A stretch of DNA of 41,254 nt from a virus, in the IMG/VR virus record IMGVR_UViG_3300045283_000142, positions 1-41,254 of that record, one strand, 5' to 3'. Positions 12,600 through 20,188 of this stretch are shown here, in pieces. A program made the translations under genes and the position numbers. A model generated the notes under the pieces. That model was not told where the DNA came from. It did no database searches and saw only the letters and a list, made by a program, of their open reading frames with translations. Each line of letters starts with the position of its first letter. The first letter of the stretch is position 1.

Positions 12600-13661
12600 T
12601 CAGTGTCTCCAGTTCGAAACGCTATCGGACAAAATGTTGTAACCCGCGCCTGCGCCTTGCACGAGCGCCGGATCGACGCCCAGAATCCCCGGCTGCACGT
12701 TCGGCCGTTTCATCGTCGCCATCGCGTCTTTCCACAACTGCGGCAGCGCCGGGCACCGCTCACCGATGTTCACACCGAAAGGCGTGACGAGCCGCATCGC
12801 GAGCGTGTAGAGGAAGGCGTCCTGATAGCCAGGCGGCCCTTGCAGAATGCTATCGAGGCTCGCCGGCACGCCCACCGGCTGCGGCGTATACAGCACGAGA
12901 TCGATGGCCGGCGGCACCGGCCAAATCTTCAGCGTGCCATTGCCATCGGTCAGATTCGTCTGATAGAAGATTTGCTGCGGGAGCGCCGAGGACAACTGCT
13001 TGATCGTCACGCCCGCATACTGATCCATGTCGAGAATCGCCAGCGGCACTTCGATGGCCGTCGTGCCAGACGTGCCGGGAATGATATAGGCCGCTGTGTC
13101 AATCCACATCGGCCGGTCCATATCGACCGTCTGCCCCACACCCACCTGCACCGACAGCGTGCTCGCGGGCCATGTGAATTGCGTCTGCAACTGCAGCGAG
13201 AGCGTGAGCCGATCCGCCTGCCACGCATCGATCAGCGACTGCATCCGCCGTAGCCCCACGGCCGCCTGTCCGGCATCTGGCGTCTCGCCCGGTTGCAGCA
13301 CGCCAATTTCCATCAAGGCATCCGTGATGATGCCACGCACCGTATAGGCGAGGATGCCAGAGGTGGCCGTGACGGCTTCCTGAGCCGCTTCCGTGACCGT
13401 CGCCACCTGAATCGTCGCGGGCACGGCGCCGTTGCCGATGAAGGTGAAGGCGATGAGGGTGTAGTTGGTTTCGGCTTGTGACGGCCGGTAAGTGAAGTAG
13501 CCGTTGCCTTCGGCCGTGCAGACGCCGCTGCCCACCGTGCCGAGGGCCTGCGTGCCCGCATCGCCCGTGACATACACCGTGACGGCCCCGATATAGCCGG
13601 AGCCGTTGGTCGCATTGACCATCTGGGCGCCGATAGCCTGACCGGCCTGATTTTTGATCAT
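12600..13661 (-). CDS. P22 gp4-like head-completion protein with N-terminal beta domain
   Basis: A 353-residue protein. Residues about 105-345 match the P22 gp4 tail accessory factor family: 'IITDALMEIGVLQPGETPDA' (111-130), then 'GLRRMQSLIDAWQADRL' and a long beta-rich C-terminus ending with cysteine- and Pro-containing 'ERCPALPQLWKDAM'. The first 100 residues form an extra Gly/Thr-rich beta domain not found in P22 gp4, probably an Ig-like or decoration domain. gp4-type proteins bind the portal after packaging and nucleate the tail. The gene is followed by the gp10-like gene, consistent with this role. Confidence 0.82.
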   Translation of the reverse strand: MIKNQAGQAIGAQMVNATNGSGYIGAVTVYVTGDAGTQALGTVGSGVCTAEGNGYFTYRPSQAETNYTLIAFTFIGNGAVPATIQVATVTEAAQEAVTATSGILAYTVRGIITDALMEIGVLQPGETPDAGQAAVGLRRMQSLIDAWQADRLTLSLQLQTQFTWPASTLSVQVGVGQTVDMDRPMWIDTAAYIIPGTSGTTAIEVPLAILDMDQYAGVTIKQLSSALPQQIFYQTNLTDGNGTLKIWPVPPAIDLVLYTPQPVGVPASLDSILQGPPGYQDAFLYTLAMRLVTPFGVNIGERCPALPQLWKDAMATMKRPNVQPGILGVDPALVQGAGAGYNILSDSVSNWRH

Positions 13662-13687: not shown

Positions 13688-13706
13688 TCCGTCAACAATT
13701 GACGGA
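13688..13706. other. 8-bp inverted repeat at the end of the 479-residue gene
   Basis: TCCGTCAA (13688-13695) and TTGACGGA (13699-13706) pair perfectly around a 3-nt loop. On the minus strand the hairpin spans the last codons and the TGA of the 13692-15131 gene and lies 27 bases before the gp4-like start. No T-tract follows, so it is not a typical intrinsic terminator. It could protect an mRNA end or modulate expression of the downstream tail genes. Confidence 0.5.
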
Positions 13707-15131
13707 AAAGACATGAATCACCGGCCGATATTCGACGCCTTGCAGTTCGGCATGCATTTGGCTCACGAACAACTGCTTACTCACAGGTTCAAACCACGCC
13801 GCCCCGTATTGACTGCCCCATGGGTAGTTCCAACTGGTCGCCAACTGCGGAAACACCGATCCACTGTGGGGCAACAGGCTCATATCGTAACCGTCAGTAT
13901 TCGGAACCACGCCGATTGGCGAACTGCTTCCACCAGCGACCGCCAAGAGCGAGGCTGGATCGTAAATCCACATCGTGCTCATCGCCGTCGTCATCGAATT
14001 GCCGGTGCCTTGGGCATAGCGGCTGTCCACTTGCCCATGCGAGCACAGGTGGAAGCCAGTCACGGCTTGCTGGCCTGGACCATACCAGACATGACATTTG
14101 CCGTAGGTGCCATATTCGGAGGCATTCGCGGCCAGCGTTCTGGCAATCTGGCCGATATAGAGCACCCCTTGCTTCTGCGTGCCTTCAATCCAGACAGCGG
14201 CACCAACTTGATCGCCTGGAAACCAATTGCTGCCTGGACCAAACGTAGGCGTGCCGAAGGGCGCCCCGCACAGGTTGCCATGTGGCGTGCAGCCGGTGCC
14301 ATCTTGCGTGGGATTCAACTGGGGCTGGTCGCCAAAGCCGTCAGACTCGCCATAATGCGTCCACCCACAGTAATCCGTGTCGTTGATCCGTGGCTGGGGA
14401 TGGCTGATGTCGCTATAGAGAAGGTCCGTCGTGGGAATCGTGATGTGCGTCCCATCGAAGGCCGTGTCCGGCGTCGTGCCATTGGCTGGAGGGGTCCATG
14501 CCGCTGCATATGTGCCGAAGGTTGACCCGATGTCAATCGAACTGTAGGGTGCCCCTGACGCGATTCGCTTGCCTCCGAGAGCCGCCTGAGCACGCGCCGG
14601 CAGTTCATACATGTAGCCGCCGCAGTGCTGTGATGTTGATCCTGGGCGCCATGGGCCGAAGGGTGTCACGGTGCCGCCGCTCAGGATGGAGGTACCAAAG
14701 CACGGGTCCCAATTGGACGAAAAGGAATCCATATACGACCAGAGCATTTGGCCGCTCGTCTCATCCCAGAGAATGCCGCGGAGGTCACGGTTCGCCCCAT
14801 TCGCGGTCGGCCGGTGCTGGGCCGTCAACGTGATGTCGCCCCAATTGAACACGAACGTGCCGCGCGTGCCCACGCCGGTATAGAGCACCTCATAGACCGG
14901 ATCATTCCACCCGGTTTCCCAATTCGCCCCCGTGATGTAGAGATGAATGTTGCCGCCGATGACCCGCCCTGTCATGGCCCCCGTGGAAAAGCCGTAGCGT
15001 TCGCTGCCGGTATCCAACGGCAAGGTCATCGAGCCGAGAAAGGTGAAATCACTCGGTTGCAACACCGCGGTCGACACCGAGGTCGAGGCTGAAACCACCG
15101 GAATGCCATGCCGCCGCTCGATGTAATGCAC
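13692..15131 (-). CDS. Large beta-rich virion protein of unknown function
   Basis: A 479-residue protein. The GTG at 15131 directly follows the upstream stop (TAG GTG), with GGAG about nine bases before it. The sequence is rich in Gly, Trp, Tyr and Thr, with repeated short 'VVGGNIHLYITG', 'GTRGTFVFNWGD', 'QMLWSYMDSFS' segments suggestive of beta-propeller blades. It has several Cys (near 143, 169, 255, 281, 288, 349, 363 and the C-terminal residue), unusual for a cytoplasmically assembled virion protein. Between the W/P-repeat adhesin and the gp4-like gene it most likely contributes to receptor recognition. I do not recognise a family. Confidence 0.65.
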   Translation of the reverse strand: MHYIERRHGIPVVSASTSVSTAVLQPSDFTFLGSMTLPLDTGSERYGFSTGAMTGRVIGGNIHLYITGANWETGWNDPVYEVLYTGVGTRGTFVFNWGDITLTAQHRPTANGANRDLRGILWDETSGQMLWSYMDSFSSNWDPCFGTSILSGGTVTPFGPWRPGSTSQHCGGYMYELPARAQAALGGKRIASGAPYSSIDIGSTFGTYAAAWTPPANGTTPDTAFDGTHITIPTTDLLYSDISHPQPRINDTDYCGWTHYGESDGFGDQPQLNPTQDGTGCTPHGNLCGAPFGTPTFGPGSNWFPGDQVGAAVWIEGTQKQGVLYIGQIARTLAANASEYGTYGKCHVWYGPGQQAVTGFHLCSHGQVDSRYAQGTGNSMTTAMSTMWIYDPASLLAVAGGSSSPIGVVPNTDGYDMSLLPHSGSVFPQLATSWNYPWGSQYGAAWFEPVSKQLFVSQMHAELQGVEYRPVIHVFSVNC

Positions 15132-17162
15132 CTAGTGTGTCTCCGGCTGCGGCGCCCATGGCCCGACAATCTGATTGCTGTTCACCGCCCATTCCGCTTT
15201 GAACGGCGACGGTGGGGCGCCATCAATCGTCCGCACCGGCTTCACGGATTGCGCGGGCCAGTTTGGCTGCCACTGATTGATCAAGGCGCCGAGATTGGCG
15301 TTGCTGATCGACCGGACTGGTGGCGGGTTCGTGCCACTCGGCAGGCTCGCCGTCATGTTCCGGGCGCGTTGCGCCGGCCACGTCTGCACCCACTGGCTCG
15401 TCAGCCCCGCTAGAGTCGTCACCGAGAGCGGACCGTGCGGTGTCGGCGGACTCCCCGCGGACGGCGGCACGACCGTGGTCAGGCGCTGCGGTTCTGTCCA
15501 CTCGGTCGGCCACGCGCGCACGAGCTCGCTGATTTCCGTCGCTGAGAGCGGCCCAGAGGGCACCGGCGGGCTGCTGGGCGTGGGCGGCGCCAACTGCACC
15601 AGTCGCTGCGGCTCCGGCCAGTCGCTGGACCAGGCCTGTCGAATCGTCCATTCCTGCGGGCTATAGGGGCCCTGTGGCCGCGGGGCATCCGGCGCATCCG
15701 CCGGGAGCACCACGTTGATATCGACCACCCGAATATCCAGATCCGGGAAGGCGGCCGCCCAGATGCCTGGGTTCAGCCAACCGGTCGGACGGGTCGGGAA
15801 TTGCCCCGTGAACTGGTCGGCGAGGAAGTTATCGAGCAGGGCGGCGGTCGGGCCGATGTGATTGACGAAGATGCCGGGCTGCCCCGTCGTCACGGCGGTG
15901 TCGGTCTGGTCGGTCCCGATTTGCACGCCATTGACGAACATCCGCAGCCGCGAGCCAATCACCTCGAGCCGCAACACATCGCCATCGGTGAGCGTCACGC
16001 CCGTGGCGGCTTGGATCAGCGTCCCAACGCCCGCGACGGTCTGGAACAGGTCGACTTCAGACGCGGATGGATTCGCCACCATCGCATAGGAAGCCAACCC
16101 ACTGGCCGAGATGCGCACGACGGCCGCCGGCGTGTCGTTGCCGTAGGCGATGACCTGAATCTGGGCATACTGATCCGGCCCAAACGCAGTCTCTTTCCAG
16201 AACGACAGATTGCTGCCGGCCGCGATGCCGTAGGCATGACCCAGACCATCGGTGCCCAACTGGCCGGCGGTGGGCGTCCAGTTACAGGGGCCGAGCGAGG
16301 TCGAATAGTTGATTTCGAAGGCGTCATGCGCCGGCAATCCCACCGGCTGACACATCAACGGCGCGATCTTGTTCTCGCGGTCGTTCGGCGTCTGCAGCCG
16401 CGGCTCGAGCGAGGCGGGCCACGAGGCATAGATGGCCGTGCGTGACGGCGCCGGTTGCACGGGCACCGGCGGCAGCCCTGCTGGCGGGGGCACGAGATGC
16501 CGGGTCGTCTGGGCGGGCCAGTCGGTCGGCCACGCCCGCTGCACAATCGAGAGTTCGGTGGCTGTGATGGGGCCAGCAATGGGCGGCGGATCGGGATTGT
16601 CTGGCGCAATGGTCCACGTCGCGATGAGTTCGATATCGACTGGATCGTGCCACGCCGTGAGGATGCTGGCCGGCTGTCTGGCAAACGGCGGATTGGCCGC
16701 TGGAGGCGGCGGCAAGACGGCCGCCGTGCCAAAGGCGCGCTGGGCCGGCCAGGCCGGGAGCCATTGCCCATAGACATGCGTGAGTGGCGTATCGTAAGGA
16801 ACTGGCGGCTGAACGATTGGAGGAGGCGGAATGACCGCCGCATTGCCATGAATCGTCTGCGCGGCCCAATCGACCGTCCATTGCCCAATGATCGGATGGA
16901 ACTGTGGAACGTATGGGATTTGCGGCGGAACGAATGGCGGCGGCGGAATGACCGCCGCGTTCTTGACTTGCTGATTGTTCGGCGCCTGCAGTCTGGGCTC
17001 AAGGTCTGCCGGCCATGAGGCGAGCACCAGAGCCATCGCCAAGACCGTTTGCACTTGTCGGCGCGGCGGCTGATCGCCCGTGGAGCCTTGCGGCTCATGC
17101 GGCACCGGCGGTGCGTAACTCGCCGATTGACTGGGCGGCGGCGGCGGATAGAAGAACGCCAT
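15132..17162 (-). CDS. W/P-repeat protein with central lectin-like domain
   Basis: A 676-residue protein with a striking design. Residues about 40-280 and 480-660 are built of about ten repeats of roughly 40 residues, each with a Trp-containing helix-like part ('RAWPTDWPAQ', 'QWLPAWPAQR', 'AWPTEWTEPQR', 'QWQPNWPAQS') and a polyproline linker ('PPPPIVQPPVP', 'PPSAGSPPTPHGP'). The first ten residues include five consecutive prolines. The repeats flank a domain at about 281-455 with jelly-roll/concanavalin-like features ('YAQIQVIAYGNDTPAAVVRI', 'DGDVLRLEVIGSRLRMFVNG'), usual for carbohydrate-binding LamG-like folds. It lies in the receptor module. A long flexible adhesin presenting a lectin head is the best inference. 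Confidence 0.75.
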   Translation of the reverse strand: MAFFYPPPPPSQSASYAPPVPHEPQGSTGDQPPRRQVQTVLAMALVLASWPADLEPRLQAPNNQQVKNAAVIPPPPFVPPQIPYVPQFHPIIGQWTVDWAAQTIHGNAAVIPPPPIVQPPVPYDTPLTHVYGQWLPAWPAQRAFGTAAVLPPPPAANPPFARQPASILTAWHDPVDIELIATWTIAPDNPDPPPIAGPITATELSIVQRAWPTDWPAQTTRHLVPPPAGLPPVPVQPAPSRTAIYASWPASLEPRLQTPNDRENKIAPLMCQPVGLPAHDAFEINYSTSLGPCNWTPTAGQLGTDGLGHAYGIAAGSNLSFWKETAFGPDQYAQIQVIAYGNDTPAAVVRISASGLASYAMVANPSASEVDLFQTVAGVGTLIQAATGVTLTDGDVLRLEVIGSRLRMFVNGVQIGTDQTDTAVTTGQPGIFVNHIGPTAALLDNFLADQFTGQFPTRPTGWLNPGIWAAAFPDLDIRVVDINVVLPADAPDAPRPQGPYSPQEWTIRQAWSSDWPEPQRLVQLAPPTPSSPPVPSGPLSATEISELVRAWPTEWTEPQRLTTVVPPSAGSPPTPHGPLSVTTLAGLTSQWVQTWPAQRARNMTASLPSGTNPPPVRSISNANLGALINQWQPNWPAQSVKPVRTIDGAPPSPFKAEWAVNSNQIVGPWAPQPETH

Positions 17163-17164
17163 AC

Positions 17165-17926
17165 TTACTGTGTCAGGATCGGCGCCATATAGGTTTGTCT
17201 CGGCACAAATATCGCCGGGGCGGCCAATTTGATGACGACCACGGCCATCTCATAATCGCTACTTCCTGTAGCCGTCACGGTCGCGCGTGCCGTAGACCCA
17301 GCGCTTCCAGAATCGGCATCTTCCAACGCGACTTGTGAATTCCCGTTTCCATCGTTCTTCGTGAAAATGGAGTAGGTCGTATCGAGCGTGCCAGCCGAGA
17401 TCGTTTGATTGTCACCCGCATCCGTATAACACCCGAGTTTCAGCTCATTGGCCGCCGTCGTGGTGTTCGATGTCGTTCCTGAATCCCTTGGGGACGGGCC
17501 ATTATTCGCCGATGAATATTTCACCACGCCGTTATCGATGATGTTCGCCGAGCCTGTCGCGATTGTCAGGCCGGTATAAGCCCCCACCGCAATCGATGCG
17601 CCGAATCCGCCGGACCCTGTGCCACCGAAGGCGACCGTGATGTTATTCATCGCGGAGCCGTTGCACACGGCTGTCCAGACCGATGATTCGGATCCATAGC
17701 CTCGACCCGTGGTCGGTTGGATTGATGTCAGTTTCTCCCAGGTGACTCCGCTATCATCTGTGATACCCGTGACTGTCGGCTGACCGCCGGCGCGGTTGTT
17801 ATTGATGACAGCAACGGCCCGTGCATTCGCTGACGGTGTGGCTCCGAGACTGCCCGCATTCCAACTCGCTGTGGACACGCCGGTATTCGCATTCAGTGTC
17901 GCCGACGTGACGCGAGCCCAGGCCAT
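17165..17926 (-). CDS. Beta-sandwich virion protein, unknown function
   Basis: A 253-residue, Ser/Thr/Gly/Asn-rich protein with the pattern of a single beta-sandwich found in many secreted and phage surface proteins: 'VTGITDDSGVTWEKLTSIQP' (about 51-70), 'ESSVWTAVCNGSAMNNITVA' (79-98), and a terminal 'SDYEMAVVVIKLA' strand. It overlaps the glycoside hydrolase gene upstream by TAATG and precedes the W/P-repeat adhesin by two bases. Probably a tail-surface or decoration protein in the same complex. Confidence 0.65.
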   Translation of the reverse strand: MAWARVTSATLNANTGVSTASWNAGSLGATPSANARAVAVINNNRAGGQPTVTGITDDSGVTWEKLTSIQPTTGRGYGSESSVWTAVCNGSAMNNITVAFGGTGSGGFGASIAVGAYTGLTIATGSANIIDNGVVKYSSANNGPSPRDSGTTSNTTTAANELKLGCYTDAGDNQTISAGTLDTTYSIFTKNDGNGNSQVALEDADSGSAGSTARATVTATGSSDYEMAVVVIKLAAPAIFVPRQTYMAPILTQ

Positions 17927-19347
17927 TAGGCGTCGAGCCTCAACACCCAGTCAGTGAATGAGCCTTCACTATTCGCACCAGGTGCCGTGAATGTATGCGT
18001 GCCGGTGTTGGCGAAGCTCCCAATCGCGGTATAGCCAGCCGTTGGATCGAACCACCGCGCGGTAGTGGTTCCGCGCATCTTGGTCATATCGATCGTGAAC
18101 GTCCCGCTATGCGCTGGAGGCCGATAGGCGACTAACAGCGATCCGTCCGGTGTCGCGGAAGCCGCCACATAGTCCGATGAACCAGCGGACGATCCCCCAG
18201 CCGTCACTAACGTGCCGATGCTGCCAAGCCCAGAGGGAACGAGACTATACCAGGTGATTGACTTGACGAACGCATTGAGACGCGCGAGATCCTGTGCGCA
18301 TTGTGTATTGATATGGTTCTGCCAGATACCGGCCTTCCCAGGCCAGACATAGCCATTACCAGAAATATAGCCCCCTATAGAGGAGAGCCACGCCCACCAG
18401 AGTTGTCGCCGCACAGGCTGTGAGGATGAGGGATTCACATTGAGCCCATCCGGACCTTCCTCGTCGTAGGGTTCTTCAATCATAAAACCAGGCATCGTGC
18501 CATAGGCACGTCTGGCCTGCGTGACGCACGATCCATTCGCTGTATTCCAGCCCACATAGGCGCCATTGAGTGTAATCGACGTGCCCATCGTCCCTGGGAG
18601 ATCCGTGGCCACACAGGGGCTGCCAGCTTCGGCAGTGATCAGTTTCCCATCCGACACACTTTGCAGCCCAGTCAGGAGCGCCTGCGCATAGGTCTGATCG
18701 CTGCCTGTGAAGGGATTCCCACCAGATCCATAATCGCCGGCAATACACCAGATGATGTTTTTTCGACTCAGATAGCGCGAGGCGATCCACGCACCATAGG
18801 TTTGCATTTTTGTCGTCCCATTCGCGCCCATTTCCGGCATCCAGCCATCGGTCTGATTCGAGGACCATCCGGTATACATGGGAAACATAAAGACGACAAT
18901 GCCGAGCGCGAGACATTGATCAATCAAGGCATCGACGAAGACCCAATAGGGTTCATTGGATGTCGTCACATCAGGGGCTTCATTCGCGATGGTTCCGTAA
19001 CTGAGCGCCCCCGTCCAGTTACCTCCATCTAATCGTTTGAGGAACGGATAATCACCGGCTCCGCTCGCTGGAACATTTCTGGCTGGCCCAAGACCGCTGG
19101 TTGTAAACCGCCACGGGATCCCGACTTCGATTGCCGTGAATCCCTTGGATGCACAATCCGTTAGGTAGGTATTTCTCTCGGAGACAGGGAGCCCGACTAA
19201 GGCCCAAGACGCACGACCGAGAATGGGAAATGGCGTGCCATTCGGACTTTGCAGGGTTCGTCCGTCCGCAGCCACAGAGAGCGGGAAGACGAGCGAAGGC
19301 GGCGTGGCCGACCGCCCTCGCGTCGTTTGCAGGTAATACTTCGGCAT
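17926..19347 (-). CDS. GH140/DUF4038-like glycoside hydrolase with collagen-binding-like C-terminal domain
   Basis: A 473-residue protein resembling the DUF4038 (apiosidase-like) TIM-barrel family. After a beta-strand lead it has 'NGTPFPILGRASWALVG' (about 36-52), 'YLTDCASKGFTAIEVGIPWR' (61-80) and 'RKNIIWCIAGDYGSGG' (195-210), where D205 sits in the family's acid/base position. 'MPGFMIEEPYDEEGPD' (285-300) supplies candidate nucleophile E291/E292. Residues about 385-473 match the PF12904-type domain usually fused to it ('WFDPTAGYTAIG', 'FTDWVLRL'). The described GH140 member cleaves apiose from rhamnogalacturonan II. Here, in a phage tail block, a depolymerase acting on host capsule or exopolysaccharide is the inferred role. 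No signal peptide. Confidence 0.8.
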   Translation of the reverse strand: MPKYYLQTTRGRSATPPSLVFPLSVAADGRTLQSPNGTPFPILGRASWALVGLPVSERNTYLTDCASKGFTAIEVGIPWRFTTSGLGPARNVPASGAGDYPFLKRLDGGNWTGALSYGTIANEAPDVTTSNEPYWVFVDALIDQCLALGIVVFMFPMYTGWSSNQTDGWMPEMGANGTTKMQTYGAWIASRYLSRKNIIWCIAGDYGSGGNPFTGSDQTYAQALLTGLQSVSDGKLITAEAGSPCVATDLPGTMGTSITLNGAYVGWNTANGSCVTQARRAYGTMPGFMIEEPYDEEGPDGLNVNPSSSQPVRRQLWWAWLSSIGGYISGNGYVWPGKAGIWQNHINTQCAQDLARLNAFVKSITWYSLVPSGLGSIGTLVTAGGSSAGSSDYVAASATPDGSLLVAYRPPAHSGTFTIDMTKMRGTTTARWFDPTAGYTAIGSFANTGTHTFTAPGANSEGSFTDWVLRLDA

Positions 19348-19368: not shown

Positions 19369-19869
19369 TTAGCCGATTTCTCGATAGACCACGCCGAAGG
19401 ACCATCCGGTCAGCGTGCCAGGGGTCGACGTGAACTGCAGGAACGTGCCGCTGGTGCTGCCGGGCATGGACTGCATCGTCTCGGCCGGCGTCGGCACCCA
19501 GAGCCAGCCGTTCAACACGTTGAAGTTGTCTGGGTAGACCTTGATTTCGGTGCCGGCGCCGTTCGCGCTGGCATTGATGCCCGCAGACCCGGCCGCCCCG
19601 GTCGTGTTGCCGACAAGGCTGGCCGTGGGCAAGCCCAGCGAGGTCTTCGCGGGCGTGGCCGAGGTCAGCGTGGGAAACACCGTGACTTTCGTGCCGATGC
19701 AGACGCCCTGCTGCGCCGAGGTGGCATTCGCGCGCTGACTCACCCAGCAGCGAAGCAGTTCATAGCCCGGCACGCCGGCGCCACCGGCCGCCACGTTCAG
19801 GAAGACGAGCTGCGGCGCACCGCTGACGGTGATGTTGTCGCCGCTGACGGTGTAGGAACGATCAGCCAT
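19369..19869 (-). CDS. Virion-associated beta protein, unknown
   Basis: A 166-residue, Gly/Thr/Ser/Ala-rich protein with beta-strand alternation ('TVSGDNITVSGAPQLVFLNV' near the N-terminus, 'STPGTLTGWSFGVVYREIG' at the C-terminus). AAAGGA lies eight bases upstream of its ATG, and it overlaps the upstream Cys-ribbon gene by 8 nt. It sits at the boundary between head genes and the receptor module. Likely structural; no family recognised. Confidence 0.6.
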   Translation of the reverse strand: MADRSYTVSGDNITVSGAPQLVFLNVAAGGAGVPGYELLRCWVSQRANATSAQQGVCIGTKVTVFPTLTSATPAKTSLGLPTASLVGNTTGAAGSAGINASANGAGTEIKVYPDNFNVLNGWLWVPTPAETMQSMPGSTSGTFLQFTSTPGTLTGWSFGVVYREIG

Positions 19870-20188
19870 GTGTAGAATCCTTTGAGGTCAAGTTGATGAA
19901 GGTCTGATCCGGTCGCTGATCGGTGATCGTCTCACCGCGTTGCAGATCCACGAAGGTCTGACCGGGCCGGTCGTATTCGATTTCTTTCCCGGTGCGCACG
20001 TCGATGTGCCTGAGCCGTTCCACCTGCCCCGTGCCGCCACATTTCGGACAGTCGATCAGCAGATCCTCGTGGGTCAGCTTGTTGTAGCCCAGCCACATCT
20101 TGCCCGGCTGTCGCTTGTAGTCACTGCAGGCGATGCAGCGCATCATGCCGATGGGCACCGTGATGAATGGCACGACTTCCAGTGGCAT
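19862..20188 (-). CDS. Zinc-ribbon-like small protein
   Basis: A 108-residue protein with two CxxC pairs: CIAC (about 18-21) and CPKCGGTGQ (about 47-55). The second resembles the DnaJ-type CxxCxGxG zinc element. The C-terminal 40 residues hold two similar 'RPGQTFVDL' / 'RPDQTFINL' units. A TAATG overlap couples it to the gene upstream. A zinc-binding accessory in head or tail assembly is inferred from position. Confidence 0.65.
   Translation of the reverse strand: MPLEVVPFITVPIGMMRCIACSDYKRQPGKMWLGYNKLTHEDLLIDCPKCGGTGQVERLRHIDVRTGKEIEYDRPGQTFVDLQRGETITDQRPDQTFINLTSKDSTHG

Follow-up and report, generated by a model that had tools for sequence, protein, structure and literature searches.

A tryptophan/proline-repeat protein with a shared C-terminal tag in the structural gene cassette of a P22-like podovirus, uncultivated and from soil

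The stretch of DNA analysed here (the window) is a 41,254-base IMG/VR virus record that carries a portal, a scaffold and a P22-type major head protein, and its genes run in the order head genes, cassette, head-tail adaptor and head-closure protein Hc3. The source virus is an uncultivated P22-like podovirus, a bacterial virus from soil. A gene for a protein built of tryptophan/proline repeats, here called the W/P protein, lies between the major head protein and Hc3 (Table 1), showing that the W/P protein is part of the late structural cassette of this podovirus. Relatives of the W/P protein came from viral contigs, which are designated below, like the other loci compared, by L numbers.

Table 1. 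Features of the W/P locus in the window
Feature	Position	Strand	Basis or remark
Head-to-tail adaptor body, P22 gp4/Pam1-type	12603..13346	-	phrog_12985
N-terminal ~95-aa beta domain of the adaptor gene, proposed tag receptor	13377..13661	-	
479-aa protein, gene flanked by those of W/P and adaptor	13692..15131	-	kept in the core-bearing lineage
W/P repeat protein, 676 aa, ATG start	15132..17162	-	relatives over the full length, 54-75% identity
C-terminal tag FKAEWAVNSNQIVGPWAPQPETH, aa 654-676	15135..15203	-	common to the DWP protein and unrelated proteins
C-terminal repeat arm, aa 456-676	15135..15797	-	units W511, W551, W591, W631
ConA-like lectin/CBM66-like beta-sandwich core, aa 275-455	15798..16340	-	AF2, Foldseek
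N-terminal repeat arm, aa 1-274	16341..17162	-	units W50, W95, W134, degenerate W171/W183, W211, W248
Constant N-terminal region MAFFYPPPPPSQ...PPVPHEPQ..GDQPPRRQVQ, aa 1-37	17052..17162	-	conserved in the family
Upstream protein, 253 aa	17165..17926	-	own conserved C-tail VPRQTYMAPILTQ at 17168-17206; body varies
Apiosidase-like glycoside hydrolase of the cassette	17926..19347	-	PF13204 E=6e-33, PF12904 E=2e-10
Cassette marker protein, 166 aa	19369..19869	-	conserved among W/P-positive phages
Cassette marker protein, 108 aa, two CxxC motifs (CPKCGGTGQVE)	19862..20188	-	

Two small proteins mark the cassette and strictly co-occur with the W/P protein. The 166-aa marker is 71-96% identical among the W/P-positive phages compared, and the other phages are without it; the 108-aa marker is DnaJ-zinc-finger-like, with a Pfam DnaJ_CXXCXGXG match below the cut-off. 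The 479-aa protein gave no match in Pfam or PHROGs, and a scan with its gene matched nothing. Cassettes of other phages of the group contain beta-helix/TIG proteins. Several cassette proteins, the apiosidase-like enzyme included, carry a short motif of similar sequence at the N-terminus, M..YYIP..RG or MPKYYLQTTRGR (loci 17926-19347, L007:6495-7289 and L008:823-2094), which is possibly another docking tag.

The W/P protein contains 25 Trp and 111 Pro. Its arms hold seven W-x3-W pairs where 1.04 were expected, a number reached in 0 of 20,000 shuffles, and 13 W-W pairs at lags of 37-41 residues against 4.4 expected (9/20,000 shuffles), while PPP clusters alone were in modest excess over chance (568/20,000 shuffles). 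An iterated unit profile of 38 positions (consensus dpPppvgPlsatelaaivrsWptdWpAQraapalqpPp) detected nine units, five N-terminal and four C-terminal; a tenth, degenerate unit lies at W171/W183, in a 77-residue gap of the N-terminal arm. The period is ~39-40 aa and the signature W-x3-W-P-A-Q, in agreement with the preliminary description of about ten 40-residue Trp-Pro repeats. That description knew of no named family for the repeat, and protein and profile searches with the arms likewise returned no match in Pfam, PHROGs or PDB. Among 50,697 phage records, no close relative of the W/P protein and no repeats were found, and the core alone matched; in the genomes of 84,980 bacterial and archaeal species, searched by W/P profile and by head protein, no relative was confirmed. 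Matches of a two-repeat DNA pattern in L024, L029 and L041 were rejected as chance, being low-complexity W/Q runs. Literature searches yielded no description. The repeat is absent from every library searched.

Structure prediction by AF2 gave a mean pLDDT of 30.6 for the full W/P protein, with the arms below 50. When two units were modelled with a 60-sequence alignment, the pLDDT was 67.5 and each unit carried one short helix directly before its first Trp; the units were not packed on each other (pTM 0.23), and the model had no match in PDB. We also weighed a Trp-cage-like packing of polyproline, Trp and the short helix; helices do appear in the two-unit model, but as it has no PDB match, such packing is speculation. 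The preliminary description had raised the alternatives of an already described domain or of fully disordered, unconserved repeats; what we found were conserved units, each with a predicted short helix, and no match to a known-domain HMM. The repeats are thus not unconserved, and the folding of the units is partly modelled, as short helices of low confidence. The low pLDDT of the monomer could also reflect an obligate trimeric or oligomeric fibre that is hidden from monomer prediction, as low monomer values are common for oligomeric fibres and phage fibres are usually trimers. However, the arms have neither a glycine nor a coiled-coil pattern, the prediction is of short helix and coil, and a proline content of 16% with PPP runs is unusual in beta fibres; we regard such a fibre as unlikely. 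Direct reading of the units revealed no runs of the Gly-X-Y triplets of phage collagen-like fibres.

The W/P family shares one plan, a constant N-terminus (MAFFYPPPPP...), a variable number of units and a constant C-terminus (F.xEWAxNSNQxxGP..QPETH). Relatives in L008, L009, L011 and L013-L017 lack a core and are pure arrays, with 11-14 units in 567-608 aa; L101 has a form of 417 aa, and L073 a divergent form of 292 aa. Both Trp residues are invariant across ~100 non-redundant units, and the next Gln is kept in 84%. The dN/dS of the arms ranged from 0.08 to 0.24, indicating strong purifying selection: between the window and L003 it was ~0.18 for the N-terminal arm and ~0.08 for the C-terminal arm, the latter with dS near saturation, and between L008 and L009 it was 0.22. 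All 23 arm Trp and 90 of the 102 arm Pro are shared by the window and L003.

Successive units in the family mostly lie 36-42 residues apart, a distance that widens to near 78 where one unit is degenerate. This regularity would suit units that act as docking peptides on a regular protein surface, such as the capsid, the tail or the 166-aa marker, and the chain would then be a glue or scaffold rather than an adhesin. Such a role would also fit the few charges and many hydrophobic residues, unusual for a free chain, and the strict co-occurrence with the two markers. Against it, the unit number varies from ~7 to 14 among phages with closely related head proteins, so the chain is no capsid ruler, and for the capsid in particular, W/P proteins are ~75% identical where the head proteins are only 33% identical. 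We therefore regard docking by the units as unlikely.

Between the two arms lies the core, which AF2 modelled as a beta sandwich at residues 321-435 with a pLDDT of 50-77 over most of the stretch. Foldseek against PDB placed CBM66 and galectins best and also matched LamG, with E values down to 1.2e-6 and TM scores to the target mostly of 0.5-0.65, on a model of moderate confidence. Among the best matches to viral models were several actinophage tail or tail-fibre proteins, one of them the ReqiPepy6 tail fiber, which tblastn also matched to the core (two Rhodococcus phage ReqiPepy6 records); a PHROG tail-protein match was weak. The Pfam search of the window protein gave no LamG or ConA match, the core falling below Pfam's LamG models. 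At the level of fold, the modelled core belongs to the sugar-binding type (Concanavalin A-like lectin/glucanase) and may bind carbohydrate. The jelly-roll or lectin-like core of the preliminary description thus holds for the fold, by the CBM66, galectin and viral tail or tail-fibre matches, and lacks a curated LamG/ConA sequence match.

The core was present only in the window, L001/L018, L003-L007 and L042, and it was missing from L008, L009, L011 and L013-L017. These relatives consist of repeat arrays alone, which makes the core an optional insert. The two arms around a core that had been proposed are therefore not the basic architecture, nor is the placement symmetric, as 5-6 units precede the core and four follow it. 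The accompanying adhesin reading is partly supported, by the lectin-like fold of the core and the conserved repeats, and loses this architecture. As a separate observation, the W/P proteins of L003 and L005 are 98% identical in the core but 85% and 91% in the arms, which suggests from sequence comparison that this core was exchanged between phages.

Alternatively, as the preliminary description suggested, the repeats themselves may be the sugar-binding surface, with each W-x3-W pair stacking on sugar rings and the array providing avidity. The invariance of the Trp pairs is consistent with this, as are the carbohydrate-active products of the adjoining genes, the LamG lectins among other proteins with the same tag (see below) and the interchange of core-bearing and pure-array forms at one locus. 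Protein docking or packing of a mini-fold would equally predict invariant Trp, however, and the units have no predicted glycan-binding fold; we view a sugar-binding array as possible rather than probable.

The best clue to the function of the W/P protein is its C-terminal tag, which is shared with unrelated proteins; the preliminary description mentions neither the tag nor the constant termini. In other soil phages, a looser form of the tag, F..AWA..SN..IG, closes proteins whose bodies are unrelated, and several of these proteins are LamG lectins. Among 19 tagged passengers, bodies were similar in just 2 of 171 pairs; ten passengers were tested for domains, and four gave a Laminin_G_3 match above the cut-off and one a match below it. 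One C-terminal tag is thus found on unrelated bodies, an arrangement of conserved terminal module and variable body that points to a role in anchoring.

The same tag ends the proteins of a second Trp/Pro repeat family, DWP, observed at L008:9727-10608, L009:10991-11896 and L062:19687-20889, with the N-terminus MA[NT]IFRAPL. Its unit is RN.LLLP...PF.Q.DWP.P. DWP proteins had no match in PHROGs (L008, L062) or Pfam (L062), and the L062 protein was not found in isolated phages. Homology between the W/P and DWP repeats was rejected, since profile comparison aligned only the tail. W/P and DWP are alike in being Trp/Pro repeats with one tag, preceded by a protein of variable body and conserved C-tail, and they differ in the unit and in that preceding tail. 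TYM..ILTQ or a close variant ends the protein directly upstream of W/P in all cases except L101, whereas LWAASVM ends the protein directly upstream of DWP (L008:8395-9723, L062:18958-19683). The bodies of these upstream proteins showed no detectable similarity in 59 of 66 pairs before W/P and 25 of 36 pairs before DWP, while the identity of their last 12 residues was 6.9 and 8.3, compared with 0.86 at random.

Shared tails could be conserved DNA junctions, that is, sites of translational coupling or of cassette recombination, rather than protein docking elements. The tags do stand at gene boundaries and often overlap the next start, and in L008, L009 and L014 the tail and the following domain form one duplicated DNA segment, 66-67% identical. 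However, the codons of the upstream tails differ by 124 synonymous and 149 amino-acid changes over 11 codons (16 and 4 for WAASVM), and with so many synonymous changes, third-position ones before the W/P gene among them, the conservation acts at the protein level. Moreover, the window lineage keeps the tag even though a 1.4-kb gene separates it from the domain described next. DNA junctions are accordingly an improbable explanation.

That domain opens the adaptor gene (12600-13661). The body of the adaptor is homologous to P22 gp4/Pam1-type adaptors and stands before Hc3; it was called 'tail adaptor' in two phage records and SU10_adaptor in one relative, and it matched structures 9vyg and 7eep weakly (E=0.017). 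The window thus resembles the P22 gp4/Pam1 type in the body and in the order head protein, adaptor, Hc3, and differs in an extra N-terminal domain, which among the adaptors compared was found only with tagged passengers. This domain (VTVYVTGDGGTQ...GNGYYTYRPxQAETNYTLIAFTFIG) is called beta from its sequence pattern, and it was not found in isolated phages or plasmids.

All tag-positive adaptor loci had the beta domain and all tag-negative loci were without it. After clustering at 95% identity there were 6 clusters with both and 26 with neither, with zero exceptions, although in the adaptor tree the positives form a supported clade of five and a distant L139/L007 lineage and hence count as two independent cases, not 32. 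In L008, L009, L011, L013, L014, L016 and L017, two tags accompany two domains. The L006/L007 lineage is only 29% identical to the window in the portal, 33% in the head protein, 35% in Hc3 and 30% in the adaptor body, whereas the beta domain is 78%, the W/P protein 73% and the 166-aa marker 96% identical; cassette and domain thus travelled jointly into a lineage whose capsid genes are unrelated.

A further scan used just the domain and so did not select loci by tag. With all loci pooled, the W/P and DWP phages included, 42 distinct domains had upstream sequence, and 31 of them directly followed a tag-ended ORF; as background, the tag stood on 73 of 11,001 distinct ORF ends (0.66%). Of the 11 exceptions, the window, L042, L137 and L138 either carry the W/P gene one position further upstream or share this gene order. 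Another two show the variant FNPAWTQVNVVIQ, two are the second member of a tandem pair, and three (L184, L193 and the first domain of L206) lack a tag upstream. In the window it is the gene of the 479-aa protein that separates the tag from the adaptor domain; elsewhere, tagged genes mostly directly precede the gene that starts with the domain. Tandem beta domains, the second fused to the adaptor, were observed at L073:9457-10898 and L206:5836-7331, and in L073 one tag protein was found for two domains.

Taken together, we favour, by a modest degree of confidence, the reading that the W/P protein is a virion passenger at the head-tail junction, likely polysaccharide-binding, that is docked tag to domain. 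The association of tag and domain is observed, and the C-terminal tag would bind the beta domain at the start of the adaptor. By analogy with P22 gp4, about 12 adaptor copies would surround the neck, and several whiskers could be mounted. The array of ~39-residue units, each with a short helix, W-x3-W and a proline-rich linker, would form an extended, semi-flexible chain, as the models in part indicate. In the window, the inserted ConA/CBM66-like domain adds a fold of the sugar-binding type, which other relatives lack. The Trp pairs may contact glycans or a protein partner, and the chain may keep the particle near the polysaccharide that the cassette enzymes (apiosidase-like, beta-helix) may cut. 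Stoichiometry, virion position, docking and glycan binding are in this proposal inferred from the genes and models. Counting against this reading are the two lineages on which the association in adaptors rests, the adjacency of the two genes, which could transfer both together, the 479-aa protein gene between tag and domain in the window, the two domains but one tag protein of L073, the three domains with no tag upstream and the low AF2 confidence in the arms.

More generally, uncultivated soil phages may use a plug and socket, for which we put the chances at about even: a C-terminal peptide of ~20 residues on any passenger, in the form F..AWA..SN..IG or the longer ...QPETH, would plug into the ~95-aa beta domain that opens a downstream virion gene. 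Modular depolymerase receptor-binding proteins, which have anchor and branching domains, have been described in Klebsiella phages (PMC6872550) and Ackermannviridae (PMC11414711). In these, exchangeable specificity parts are reported to be held on the tail by a conserved terminal module, and the W/P case appears similar from its genes. Their anchor is a folded N-terminal domain; the anchor of the W/P protein would instead be a ~20-residue C-terminal peptide, and its partner domain begins a following gene. Modular tail-anchored receptor-binding proteins are thus already known, and the difference is the short C-terminal peptide and the partner domain in a following gene. T4 Hoc is reported as a fibre of the virion that is attached by a conserved C-terminal part and whose string of units varies (PMC10385173); those units are Ig domains on the capsid, whereas the W/P units are Trp/Pro peptides and their linkage points to the head-tail adaptor. 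Neither Ig domains nor a capsid-binding domain was recognised in the W/P protein by Pfam or AF2. With Concanavalin A-like lectins, CBM66 and LamG, the W/P core has the beta sandwich in common, and LamG also occurs on other tagged passengers; unlike Concanavalin A-like and LamG domains, the core is an optional insert that falls below Pfam's LamG models.

The tag peptide and the 95-aa domain are a directly testable pair and, if they bind, a possible small protein-coupling tool. Their occurrence on unrelated proteins, together with the repeat family, could flag host-contact proteins without known domains in metagenomes. Little is known of the ways in which adhesins are mounted and exchanged by short-tailed phages that infect uncultivated soil bacteria. 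If the plug and socket is true, lectins, enzymes and Trp/Pro-repeat chains would be freely exchangeable, and the TYM..ILTQ and LWAASVM tails would extend the system to a chain in which gene order is assembly order.
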